DNA of 64,000 nucleotides from a bacterium (GTDB lineage: Bacteria; Patescibacteriota; Gracilibacteria; Peribacterales; Peribacteraceae), in NCBI GenBank assembly GCA_029558515.1, contig JAKQEM010000009.1, positions 42,186 to 106,185 on the forward strand. The letters are read 5' to 3'. The notes beneath the pieces were generated by a model, which had not been told where the DNA came from, ran no database searches, and saw nothing but the letters and a program-made list of their open reading frames with translations. A program made the position numbers and the translations under genes. This document shows positions 25,713-30,062 of the stretch, one piece after another. Numbering within the stretch: the first letter of the stretch is position 1; each line of letters begins with the position of its first letter.

Positions 25713-26336
25713 ATGCTAAAGAAGAAGCGCCCATCATGTACAAGAACTGCTTCATCGGCGGTCCCTGTAAATACACATCTTCTCTTCGCCCACGCTCTCA
25801 TCGAAGCGAACGGCAACGCCACGGAGGCGGCGCGACGTGTGTTCAAGCTGGGCAGCAAAGGGGGCAAGGACGTGCAGCGGACCGCCGAGAGCATGGGGTC
25901 CCAGTACTTGAGGAAAGTTGAGGTGCAACGGCACCTCGCTGGGCTCCTCGATAGCGTCGCCATGAACCGCAACTGGGTCCTTCTGCGCTTGAAACAGCTC
26001 GGAGAGCAGGAGAGGGACCAGCACCTTGCACTCAAGAGCATCACGCTCGTAGCGCACCTCCTCAAGTTGCTCCCCGAGGAACAGAGGAAGCCGGACAAGG
26101 ACGGAGAGCTGCAGCGCAAGACTCTCTTTCTACTCAAGCCACCGGAGATCCCTGTTGGCGGGAAGCCGTCACCACAGCTCATCGAACAGTGGAGAGAGGG
26201 CGGCATCCCGGAGCATGTGCTCGCGGATTGGCAGCAAAACGGCATGCCCGCAGAGGCAGAGATGACGGATTCTATTGAGGAAGCGATGGGGTTCCATCAC
26301 TCACTTTGTGAGAGTCCGGACCGTCGCGTCGGGTAG
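25713..26336 (+). CDS. Terminase small-subunit-like protein
   Basis: NTHLLFAHALIEANGNATEAARRVFKLGSKGGKDVQRTAESMGSQYLRKVEVQRHLAGLLD resembles the Terminase_2 N-terminal HTH pattern. No large terminase found nearby. Confidence 0.5.
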   Translation: MLKKKRPSCTRTASSAVPVNTHLLFAHALIEANGNATEAARRVFKLGSKGGKDVQRTAESMGSQYLRKVEVQRHLAGLLDSVAMNRNWVLLRLKQLGEQERDQHLALKSITLVAHLLKLLPEEQRKPDKDGELQRKTLFLLKPPEIPVGGKPSPQLIEQWREGGIPEHVLADWQQNGMPAEAEMTDSIEEAMGFHHSLCESPDRRVG

Positions 26337-26374: not shown

Positions 26375-26380
26375 TATACT
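26375..26380 (+). promoter_or_regulatory. -10-like box TATACT placing a start site at ~26387
   Basis: TATACT ends 6 nt before G26387, the first base of the 12-bp closing stem; no good -35 at 17 nt. Confidence 0.35.
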
Positions 26381-26386
26381 GGACTC

Positions 26387-26522
26387 GACCCAAGACATCG
26401 GCGGGCTTTCTACGTCCGCATCCCACCTTCAACGCAAGAAGGGGCACCTCTGCCTCGGTCAAGCGTTGCCGGTGGGAAACCATCCAATGTCTTGGGTCAA
26501 CCGAGCAGGGTGTCCCTTTTTG
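26387..26522 (+). ncRNA. Candidate novel structured RNA / bistable leader
   Basis: Fold A: 26387-26398/26487-26498 (12 bp), 26401-26406/26414-26419, 26422-26427/26471-26476, 26430-26435/26463-26468, 26441-26446/26451-26456. Fold B: 26439-26458 with 26501-26518 (18 bp, two single-nt bulges) then T5. Confidence 0.6.
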
Positions 26523-26545
26523 GTCCATGCCTTTCTCCCGAGCTC

Positions 26546-26695
26546 ATGCCATCCATCGAAACGATCTTCGAGCGCGTAATCCTCTTTCTTCGCTTCATCA
26601 GCGCGTCGATCTTTTGGGTCCTCCTTCTCGGGGGAATTCTCGTCTCGGTCTTCGCTCCGGCATATCACACGCCTGCCTATCTCATGTTCGAGTGA
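26546..26695 (+). CDS. 49-aa small membrane protein downstream of the structured RNA
   Basis: MPSIETIFERVILFLRFISASIFWVLLLGGILVSVFAPAYHTPAYLMFE; the longer 26339 ORF would have to read through the structured region. Confidence 0.45.
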   Translation: MPSIETIFERVILFLRFISASIFWVLLLGGILVSVFAPAYHTPAYLMFE

Positions 26696-26712: not shown

Positions 26713-27345
26713 ATGCCCAATTTCCTCACGTACAACAAATGGCCACTCCGGCGGATCATTGGCGCAGTGCTCACTGCGATCACCGCTTTTCTCCAAGGAC
26801 CTGTTTTTGCAGGACTCCTCCGCAGTCAATCACCCGGCATGCTCGGATATTTCTTCGGGCTTGCCATTTGGGGGTATATTCTATTTCGACTACTTCGTGC
26901 GCCAGATGAACAGAAAACCTGGAAGGGAATACCGCACGCATTCTTTGCCATTCTGCTCTATTTTCTCCTTGTTGCAGTGATCGGAGGATCATCGGGCGGT
27001 TACGAGCCTATGCCGACTCCGTATGAAATAAAGGCACAGAAGGCGGACGAGTGCATCGCACGACGGATAGCTGCCAAAGAAGATATGAGCATAGCAGCCG
27101 ATGAGTGCATGCAAGAGGCGGGGATGACACTTGAGGATCAAAGACAGATGATGCTCAATACGATAGAAATGGGGGACGACATGTCCGTCCCGGAGCGTGT
27201 CGAGTGGTGTAAGGATTTCTTGCCGTACTTCTGGGAGGACCCATCCACACTTGATACAGCCTGTGTCTACGCAGCAAACAATTGGAAAGAAGCAAAGTCG
27301 GTGCTTTTACAGGGACTCAATGATCCGCCATATGCCACCGAGTGA
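26713..27345 (+). CDS. Membrane protein, hypothetical
   Basis: MPNFLTYNKWPLRRIIGAVLTAITAFLQG... three to four TM segments then an acidic soluble tail. Confidence 0.6.
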   Translation: MPNFLTYNKWPLRRIIGAVLTAITAFLQGPVFAGLLRSQSPGMLGYFFGLAIWGYILFRLLRAPDEQKTWKGIPHAFFAILLYFLLVAVIGGSSGGYEPMPTPYEIKAQKADECIARRIAAKEDMSIAADECMQEAGMTLEDQRQMMLNTIEMGDDMSVPERVEWCKDFLPYFWEDPSTLDTACVYAANNWKEAKSVLLQGLNDPPYATE

Positions 27346-27701: not shown

Positions 27702-28334
27702 ATGCCAGTTGTTGGGGAAAACGAATGTACAGCCGTTTCCGCAGAGGAAGGCGTTCGTCTCCTGTCCGATGCGTTATATCGGTACCTCCAAGAAATTGAG
27801 GCATGCAGAGCAATTTGCACGCATGCTCAAGACACAACTGCGGTACACACGCGCGGCAAAGCACTACAAGTGTTTCGGCTGTTCCAAGTCGATGAAATCA
27901 CAGCAACCCACATACGTCATACCTCGGCAGCATTCCCCGGGTGGGAGACTTCTCCATTTTGGGCCAGCCATGGACAGGCATGGGAAAGAACACTTCAACA
28001 AATTGAGAATCGAATGGAGAAGCACGGCAAACTGCATGCTATTTTAACAACGGGTATCGTTTGGGAAGGTATCCCCCTCATCGTACATGCCTACAAATTC
28101 GAACCGGACCCGGTCATGAAAGTGGAACTTGTACTCCCAGAGATACCAGAGCCGCTGCACGAACTTCCTCTCAAAATGATTGCGACGATGCTGCGATGCC
28201 TCGATCACATTGTCCCCGAATTCATCGCTACACCTCTTCCGCCGTACGTCAGACATGAGGCGAAATTTATGACGATAAAGGAATATCTCCTGCACACAAT
28301 GCCCGCAGGACTGTATGCTACCTCGTGCTTATAG
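27702..28334 (+). CDS. Hypothetical protein of the mobile element
   Basis: 210-aa ORF, no recognised motif; ends where the interleaved inverted repeats begin. Confidence 0.55.
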   Translation: MPVVGENECTAVSAEEGVRLLSDALYRYLQEIEACRAICTHAQDTTAVHTRGKALQVFRLFQVDEITATHIRHTSAAFPGWETSPFWASHGQAWERTLQQIENRMEKHGKLHAILTTGIVWEGIPLIVHAYKFEPDPVMKVELVLPEIPEPLHELPLKMIATMLRCLDHIVPEFIATPLPPYVRHEAKFMTIKEYLLHTMPAGLYATSCL

Positions 28335-28420: not shown

Positions 28421-30016
28421 ATGGCTCGACGCAAGCCACCACAAATCACTGCAAATGCACCAATCTGGGGCATCTGTCGAAAATCTCTCGAAGATAAGAA
28501 CAAGCAAATCGAGAGTATCTCCGATCAAAAGGCACTCGCGTCCCAGTATTACGAAGAGCGATTCCCGCCCGAGATTAGAAAAACACACCCGCTCCGTTTT
28601 GTCGTGACGGAACAGAGTGGGTTTTTGCCCGGCCTTCCCACTGTTGCGGAGGTGTGTACAGCTGCACAACAGGGGCAGGTCTACGGTGTCATTGCCGTAC
28701 GCGTGAACCGCATCGGAAGGAATCACGATGATCTTGGGAAATTCACGCAGGACCTAGCCGACGGTTTTATTCCATTTCTCGAAACAACAGACGGCAAGCG
28801 CTACCGAGGGGAGGATGCGGCAACGATCATCATGCTGTGCCTCGAGGGTGCCATGGGATGGCACGAGAGCGCAGAGAAGAGCAAGGTTGTTTTCGACCGT
28901 ATGCGGCTGAAAGCCCAGAATGGCAAACACATGGGTCGCAAGATGTTCGGCGTACGGCCGCACCATGTGGTACTGGATAACGGTGAAGTGCTGCGTCATA
29001 CGGAAGTAGACCACGAGCGGCTGCCACACCTCTTGACTATCTTTCGCATGGCCGCCGCCGGAGCCACCTATCCCGATATTGAGCGTGCCATGAAGAACGT
29101 GACACAGAGGAACGGCAAGCCGCTGAACAAAACAACCATTGCCGGGCTCATCAAGAATCCCTACTTCAAAGGGGCGACGAAATACGATGGCGTGATTTAT
29201 GAGCACACGCACGAGCCACTCATTGCCCCGGAACTGTGGGAGGCTGCACAGTCGAGCATTGCGAAACGGTGCACCCACTCCGGCCGCAAGAAGAAGCAGG
29301 ATGTGCGCACGCTGTTCACGTTTGGAGATACGGTACGCTGTGGGGAATGCGGGGGCGTGATGAGCCCTTACAAGGTGGTGAAGAAGAAGGCAGGCCAAGT
29401 GTACCTTTACTACGAATGCAAGAATCGCCGGACGCAGTGCCGACAGTTGATCAAGCAGCAGCGGCGAGACAAGGACGACAGGGAGGACGGTCTGCGCGAG
29501 CAGTTTGATGCCGTGATGGACAGCATTTCCGTCGATGATGAGGTTCTTGCGGACGTGAGAGAGAAGCTGCTCGCGCTGCACGTCGAAAAGTCCGCAGCGC
29601 GCCGTGCGGAGGTGGAGGGTCTACAGCAGCAGTACAACGACATCGAGGCCAATCTCGCAGAGCAGGTGAAGGCACTGCCGAAGGCGAAGGCGCTTGGGGT
29701 GGAGGACATTGCAGAGGCCGAGATCAAAAAGCTGGCGGATGAGCGACAGCGCATCAAGAGCAAATTGGACGCCGTACACGACGAAGGCACCGACTGGATC
29801 ACCAAGGTTATTGGGAACTTCAAGCTGCTCGAACTCGCACGGGAAGCCATAAACCACGGATCACCCGTTGTGCGGGAATCGGTCATCAAAGCACTCTGTT
29901 CGAACTTGGCCGTACAGGACAAAAAGCTAGTCCCAGAGCTACGTTCTCCATTCAAAGAAACACTCAATCGAGCGGGTGATGAGGAATGGTGGAGCATACC
30001 GGACTCGAACCGGTGA
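28421..30016 (+). CDS. Large serine recombinase (resolvase N-term, Recombinase domain, zinc ribbon, coiled coil)
   Basis: CRKSLEDKNKQIESISDQ (catalytic Ser), VYGVIAVRVNRIGRNHDDL, GVRPHHVVLDNGEVL..., FTFGDTVRCGECGGVMSPYKVV...YYECKNRRTQCRQ zinc ribbon. Confidence 0.92.
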   Translation: MARRKPPQITANAPIWGICRKSLEDKNKQIESISDQKALASQYYEERFPPEIRKTHPLRFVVTEQSGFLPGLPTVAEVCTAAQQGQVYGVIAVRVNRIGRNHDDLGKFTQDLADGFIPFLETTDGKRYRGEDAATIIMLCLEGAMGWHESAEKSKVVFDRMRLKAQNGKHMGRKMFGVRPHHVVLDNGEVLRHTEVDHERLPHLLTIFRMAAAGATYPDIERAMKNVTQRNGKPLNKTTIAGLIKNPYFKGATKYDGVIYEHTHEPLIAPELWEAAQSSIAKRCTHSGRKKKQDVRTLFTFGDTVRCGECGGVMSPYKVVKKKAGQVYLYYECKNRRTQCRQLIKQQRRDKDDREDGLREQFDAVMDSISVDDEVLADVREKLLALHVEKSAARRAEVEGLQQQYNDIEANLAEQVKALPKAKALGVEDIAEAEIKKLADERQRIKSKLDAVHDEGTDWITKVIGNFKLLELAREAINHGSPVVRESVIKALCSNLAVQDKKLVPELRSPFKETLNRAGDEEWWSIPDSNR

Positions 30017-30062
30017 TCTCCGCAATGCGAATGCGGCGCTCTACCAACTGAGCTAATGCCCC
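29987..30062 (-). tRNA. tRNA-Ala (anticodon CGC), CCA encoded
   Basis: Reverse strand GGGGCATTAGCTCAGTTGGTAGAGCGCCGCATTCGCATTGCGGAGATCACCGGTTCGAGTCCGGTATGCTCCACCA; overlaps the recombinase 3' end by 30 nt. Confidence 0.93.

Follow-up and report, generated by a model that had tools for sequence, protein, structure and literature searches.

What does a compact, heavily base-paired RNA contribute when it stands in front of genes that are unrelated to each other? The question is raised by positions 26387 to 26523 of the stretch of DNA analysed here, 64,000 nucleotides (nt) of contig JAKQEM010000009.1 from a member of the Peribacteraceae (hereafter the window; its genome, G000, measures 1.3 Mb). 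A sequence-only reading of this DNA had described a novel-looking, bistable structured RNA inside a mobile element. We suggest that the RNA represents a new family of cis-acting 5' leader switches for accessory genes of integrative elements, a reading to which we give a probability of about 60%. That it is a real and previously unclassified structured RNA, belonging to no family tested, is well supported. The hosts are ultra-small Patescibacteria (candidate phyla radiation, CPR), and the conserved, mutually exclusive folds suggest an on/off switch for anti-phage and cell-surface cargo.

A structured RNA outside known families

Every stem that the sequence-only reading had named was recovered in place. 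The RNA consists of the following features.

26387..26523, plus strand: whole structured leader RNA, from P1 to the end of the pseudoknot tail (covariance model match, alignment A5, covariation)
26387-26398 / 26487-26498, plus strand: P1 closing stem, 12 base pairs (bp); the 5' strand is the predicted 5' end of the transcript and the 3' strand is ATGTCTTGGGTC
26401..26419, plus strand: P2 hairpin GCGGGC-TTTCTAC-GTCCGC, strands 26401-26406 / 26414-26419 (covariation)
26421-26427 / 26471-26477, plus strand: P3a, TCCCACC / GGTGGGA, part of the alternative fold (partner-swap test)
26430-26435 / 26463-26468, plus strand: P3, CAACGC / GCGTTG (covariation)
26439..26458, plus strand: 5' strand of the pseudoknot, AAGGGGCACCTCTGCCTCGG, in the P3 loop (covariation)
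26441-26446 / 26451-26456, plus strand: P4, local hairpin GGGGCA / TGCCTC inside the pseudoknot 5' strand (formable, no covariation)
26471..26484, plus strand: P5 hairpin GGTGG-GAAA-CCATC with a GNRA tetraloop, its 5' strand shared with P3a (covariation, GNRA loop)
26501..26518, plus strand: 3' strand of the pseudoknot, CCGAGCAGGGTGTCCCTT (covariation; duplex of about -33 kcal/mol)
26517..26521, plus strand: short U-run TTTTT closing the pseudoknot (T-counts across members)

The pseudoknot pairs over 18 bp with two single-base bulges, and T then continues to 26521. RNAfold assigned the window RNA -73 kcal/mol, compared to -50.0 +/- 4.4 kcal/mol for dinucleotide shuffles (z -5.2, 0/200). Homologues were collected by blastn with a 421-base query against 74 genomes of the order, and about 14 had a match covering the RNA. 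Seven of them served to build a covariance model (R1), which was followed by R2 and R3; the window copy matches the model over positions 1-146 of 146. About 20 of the 74 genomes of the home family carry a copy, and the RNA is rare elsewhere. Most members belong to Candidatus Peribacteria (Peribacteraceae), with others from different Patescibacteria lineages (G359, G461, G592).

The absence of a known family, as expected by the sequence-only reading, was borne out by Rfam 15: neither the window RNA nor any of 11 homologue loci reached the gathering score of a family, and none matched even with E relaxed to 5 / 1. The RNA likewise had no sequence match among phage, plasmid or viral sequences, and no paper linking Peribacteria or Peregrinibacteria with riboswitches or RNA motifs was found among the open-access papers searched. 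A pattern match labelled 'delta proteobacterium' (L057) was discarded as a chance match within GC-rich repeats. Several copies are broken: those at L028 (G045), L066/L092 (G016) and L067 (G008) keep the 5' half and break off just past the P3 loop, all at a similar point, and the ones in G045 and G016 retain the promoter.

Covariation of the helices

Covariation was counted on alignment A5, which holds 26 full-length members and excludes the fragments lacking the 3' half (G045, G016, G008). Standard pairs fill 92.6% of pair cells, and 37 of 48 pairs show double-sided changes. None of 500 shuffles of A5 reached any of these measures, and sliding the partners by 1-3 columns reduced pairing to 31-45%. 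Double-sided changes affect all 12 pairs of P1 (94.5% of cells paired), all six of P2 (89%), 6/7 of P3 (96%) and 4/5 of P5. The P5 loop is of the GNRA type in 22 of 27 parsed members (GAAA in 14, GCAA in 6, GTAA in 2); this count, like the fold energies below, covers the members processed, outside which fall some without a clean GNRA hairpin.

The pseudoknot on its own has double-sided changes in 9 of 18 pairs against 2.3 +/- 1.3 expected. Its covariation is not a fitting artefact, because the covariance model treated both strands as unpaired during alignment. The pseudoknot is also rich in G-U pairs on the plus strand, which would be A-C mismatches on the opposite strand. The functional molecule is thus likely the plus-strand RNA rather than a DNA cruciform. 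Comparison across members supports P1, P2, P3, P5 and the 18-bp pseudoknot as conserved helices, and homologues covary strongly where the sequence-only reading had proposed that they be examined.

Two further members, G636 and G787, were found by R3 and used in no model. They belong with G461 to one class, their P1 stems span 15-17 bp, and a -10 box lies 7 nt upstream in one and 6 nt in the other. Their pseudoknots show new compensating bases (AACGGG/CCGTT in G787), followed by TTTTTGTTT. A coding explanation was rejected: lengths vary between 119 and 159 nt, and any one frame is open in at most 14 of 28 members, so that conservation of an open reading frame (ORF) across the RNA, which would have contradicted the sequence-only reading, is absent.

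Promoter and distance to the coding start

Three features had escaped the sequence-only reading: the GNRA hairpin, the -10 box and the gene downstream. The promoter element and the downstream ORFs are as follows.

26375..26380, plus strand: -10 box TATACT of the RNA promoter, predicted +1 at G26387 (TAnnnT spacing)
26546..26695, plus strand: first downstream ORF, 49 aa, membrane-protein-like (MPSIETIFERVILFLRF...), starting 27 nt past the pseudoknot
26713..27345, plus strand: second downstream ORF, 210 aa, membrane-protein-like cargo (no Pfam family above cut-off in a longer version of the ORF)

A TAnnnT motif lies at -12 to -7 from the first P1 base, that is 6 nt upstream, in 23 of 27 members, compared to 0-3 members at other offsets. 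Given this constant spacing, transcription very probably starts at the first base of P1. No clear -35 box was recognised in the window copy; the divergent member G461 (L085:8547-8683) has the full promoter TTGACA-17-TAAAAT. The median distance from the pseudoknot to the start codon is 28.5 nt, and for about half of 24 copies it lies between 25 and 31 nt. The RNA is accordingly placed, by prediction, in the 5' untranslated region between promoter and coding start.

Having its own promoter, and a pseudoknot followed by a U-run, the RNA could instead be a stand-alone trans-acting small RNA (or a 3'-processed RNA) that ends at the U-run, with the downstream gene an independent neighbour. Such an RNA would fit G461, where the RNA is followed by a terminator-like hairpin and no suitably oriented gene is present, making at least this copy look stand-alone. 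An independent small RNA would not be expected to have the start codons of unrelated genes recur 25-31 nt behind it, and we consider this explanation improbable.

The U-run bears on the claim that the second fold is terminator-like. At least four T occupy the first five positions in 24 of 28 members, and at least six of eight positions in only 6 of 28. An intrinsic terminator typically combines a GC-rich helix with an immediate U-tract of about 7-8 nt. The U-run described by the sequence-only reading is present but short (UUYUU in most members), so that the terminator-like part of the claim is weakly supported.

Among 297 genes of at least 200 aa from the Peribacteria loci analysed, Shine-Dalgarno (SD)-like motifs precede 7.7% of starts compared to 13.8% in a control stretch, which suggests little use of SD sequences in the loci examined. 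Classical SD occlusion was rejected as the mechanism since the hosts' genes show so little SD signal.

Genes behind the RNA

The genes behind the RNA are unrelated to each other, and many are single short ORFs. Type III restriction methyltransferases follow it in G016, G030 and G054, and a PDC-S37/DUF4011 helicase-nuclease defence protein of 1569 aa in G359. Other copies precede an MBOAT acyltransferase (G046), a GDSL-like protein (G021), membrane glycosyltransferase-like proteins (G008, G051, G052), lipoproteins (G011, G636) or small membrane proteins (the window, G018, G052); the glycosyltransferase-like, lipoprotein and small membrane protein labels were judged from sequence features only. 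In G787 (L097:3479-8829), the RNA copy is immediately preceded by a type I restriction enzyme and by a pair resembling a cyclic oligonucleotide-based anti-phage signalling system (CBASS); the pair consists of a phospholipase effector and an oligonucleotide cyclase (PADLOC E 1e-105 and 4e-134).

The downstream genes share no metabolic theme pointing to a ligand, which sets the RNA apart from riboswitches in the strict sense. The sequence-only reading had offered a regulatory switch, an attenuator or a copy-control RNA. The evidence favours a switch of the leader type, while copy control finds no support because the RNA precedes varied cargo genes and not replication genes.

Competing folds

P3a and P5 cannot coexist, because the 5' strand of P5 is part of P3a, which also extends into the P5 tetraloop. 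The stretch before P3 matches the member's own P5 5' strand in most members and not in the window alone, as in GCCCTCA/TGAGGGC in G359, TTCCCTCTT/AAGAGGGAA in G052c and GCCCGC/GCGGGC in G054. The summed match to the own partner amounts to 383, compared to 313 +/- 12 when partners were swapped between members (0/500) and 304 +/- 12 with shuffled letters (0/300). Relatedness inflates this score, and about a dozen sub-lineages show the match independently, with G011 and G051a as exceptions. With the pseudoknot left out, the P3a fold is favoured over the P5 fold by 4-10 kcal/mol in most members, and the two folds lie within about 10 kcal/mol of each other; the pseudoknot duplex contributes between about -24 and -36 kcal/mol across members processed.

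The bistability proposed by the sequence-only reading thus reappears in two pairs of helices, both conserved: P4 (GGGGCA/TGCCTC) excludes the pseudoknot formed with the tail, and P3a (CCCACC/GGTGGG) excludes the GNRA hairpin P5. Two mutually exclusive conserved folds, with P5 against P3a and the pseudoknot against P4, are well supported as predictions from the alignment. The competition between P4 and the pseudoknot is less certain than that between P3a and P5, because P4 is without covariation.

These helix pairs also bear on whether the leader switches at all. A constitutive structural leader might act as a static 5' domain against decay that depends on the 5' end, or as a promoter-proximal processive antiterminator of the put, EAR or LoaP-hairpin kind. 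A compact pseudoknotted fold with a GNRA loop would suit such a role, as would an RNA that starts at +1 with its 5' base inside a stem of 12-17 bp and precedes varied, sometimes long genes (the 1569-aa defence protein, surface and glycosyltransferase-like genes). A static leader has no need, however, for two separately conserved pairs of exclusive helices, and the many cargo genes that are single short ORFs leave little to antiterminate. We therefore regard a static leader as unlikely, though it deserves more weight than a trans-acting small RNA.

Mobile-element context

The location inside a mobile element, asserted by the sequence-only reading, gained statistical support. Of 27 copies, 14 have a large serine recombinase no more than 10 kb away, compared to 1.6 expected (P about 1e-11), and tRNA genes stand beside many of the recombinase-linked copies. 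In the common layout, the tRNA, recombinase and core genes occupy one strand, and a divergent promoter, the RNA and the cargo the other. The window and G051a elements run in a single direction, unlike this common divergent layout. DNA similarity between the two covers a terminase-small-subunit-like (TerS-like) gene, the RNA (26386-26518) and the recombinase end, and the cargo between differs. The window element includes the following features.

25713..26336, plus strand: TerS-like gene upstream of the promoter (phrog_51, E 5e-7)
28421..30016, plus strand: large serine recombinase, its end overlapping tRNA-Ala (PF07508, phrog_95)
29987-30062, minus strand: tRNA-Ala (tRNA call)

In the G051 element, an orthologue of the TerS-like gene occupies the same place just before the RNA. 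Phage satellites are a possible identity for these elements. A second, partial relative of the TerS-like gene occurs elsewhere in the window genome, and viral contigs searched with the TerS protein gave no relatives. The recombinase reading frame ends inside the opposite-strand tRNA-Ala gene, and a comparable RDSNPRS-like tail occurs on a tRNA-adjacent ORF at the G070 locus. The 210-aa protein encoded at 27702-28334 is conserved beside the recombinase in the G051 element and could be a regulator of the element; it has no Pfam, PHROG or PADLOC match.

A TerS-like gene directly upstream of the RNA in the window and G051a, TerS-like sequences near several other copies (by inspection) and the mobile context would also fit a DNA packaging or recombination site (pac/cos, attachment site or cruciform) or a phi29-like packaging RNA (pRNA). 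Neither would account for the fixed -10 spacing, the G-U pairs confined to one strand and the RNA-type GNRA loops, and some copies lie at loci that have neither TerS nor recombinase. Searches of phage, plasmid and viral collections found no match. A pRNA of the phi29 type is further opposed by the lack of an Rfam match, although Rfam holds that family, and by the fact that only a TerS-like gene is adjacent, where such a pRNA would sit beside a phage packaging ATPase. We consider this explanation very improbable, the least likely of those weighed here.

A proposed leader switch for swappable cargo

The best explanation for these observations is that the RNA serves tRNA-targeting serine-recombinase elements of Patescibacteria as the module through which their exchangeable accessory genes are expressed. 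We propose that transcription starts at the first P1 base and that the RNA would fold as P1 enclosing P2 and P3. In state A, P3a, P3 and P4 would form together as a single long arm and leave the 3' tail free. In state B, P5 would form together with the 18-bp pseudoknot that joins the P3 loop to the 3' tail, placing the short U-run about 28 nt before the cargo start codon. State B might lower cargo expression and state A permit it, either through premature termination at the U-run or through a block of initiation by a rigid helix about 28 nt upstream of the start codon. A signal such as a small ligand, or a protein of the element or a phage, could set the balance. P3a is able to form while the 3' strand of P5 is still missing, and the pseudoknot strand is transcribed last; a co-transcriptional decision would be expected to follow this order.

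Several observations weigh against this leader switch. The stand-alone appearance of the G461 copy and the shortness of the U-run in most Peribacteria members fit it poorly, and no canonical terminator was called in the window by a scan that allows short loops only. P4 is formable in 96.6% of cells and shows no covariation, and the tail hairpin P6 (CCGAG..CTTGG), which would complete state A, was not supported. P3a cannot form well in G011 and G051a. The linkers of the pseudoknot measure 3 and 4-5 nt; with P3 closed, the full 18 bp would be sterically tight, so that state B may require P3 to open. No recombinase lies within 10 kb of about half of the copies, some of which are on short contigs, and some copies adjoin housekeeping genes instead (G021, G046).

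More tentatively, promoter and leader might together form a portable cassette that brings any accessory gene behind it, including anti-phage genes, under one common signal, with the pseudoknot doubling as the off-state helix. We lean against this extended version. If the switch holds true, a single signal would govern defence and surface genes that differ between elements, and that signal would reveal when costly cargo is expressed in bacteria of parasitic lifestyle and in their mobile elements. The apparently undescribed family occurs in a phylum with few known regulatory RNAs, and what it accompanies is the cargo position of mobile elements, not a metabolic pathway. Each base of the competing helices is assigned, which makes the model directly testable.

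Comparison with known systems

Structured RNAs of mobile elements include HEARO/omegaRNA of IscB and TnpB, with a pseudoknot in omegaRNA, and the bridge RNA of IS110. The Patescibacteria RNA differs from these in its association with serine recombinases, its lack of an Rfam match and the mutually unrelated genes downstream. No IscB, TnpB or IS110 gene was seen by inspection among the ORFs beside the copies, not every one of which was profile-scanned. GOLLD and ROOL are large RNAs of prophages and mobile elements, 600-900 nt long, with a patchy distribution near tRNAs and integrases. The Patescibacteria RNA shares the patchy distribution and the proximity to tRNAs and integrases. However, it has no Rfam match to them, measures only about 140 nt and is a putative leader before a coding gene.

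The RNAs put (phage HK022) and EAR (Bacillus) are promoter-proximal antitermination RNAs, and EAR contains a pseudoknot, a likeness to the Patescibacteria RNA. Together with the LoaP-bound dfn hairpin (PMC12691694), they resemble it as leader structures near the 5' end of accessory or surface operons. No sequence match to these antitermination RNAs was found in Rfam, and no LoaP/NusG partner was identified, none having been sought. Architecture and sequence differ, and in the Patescibacteria RNA a start codon follows about 28 nt behind and alternative helices are conserved.

Pseudoknotted transcriptional riboswitches and attenuators such as the fluoride riboswitch (PMC11077080) differ in sequence and fold (no Rfam match) and in the common metabolic theme of their genes, which has no counterpart here. 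The Patescibacteria RNA also has no separate conventional terminator hairpin; instead the pseudoknot itself bears the short U-run. What they have in common is a promoter-proximal leader with a pseudoknot, a strand shared between two exclusive helices and an adjacent coding start.
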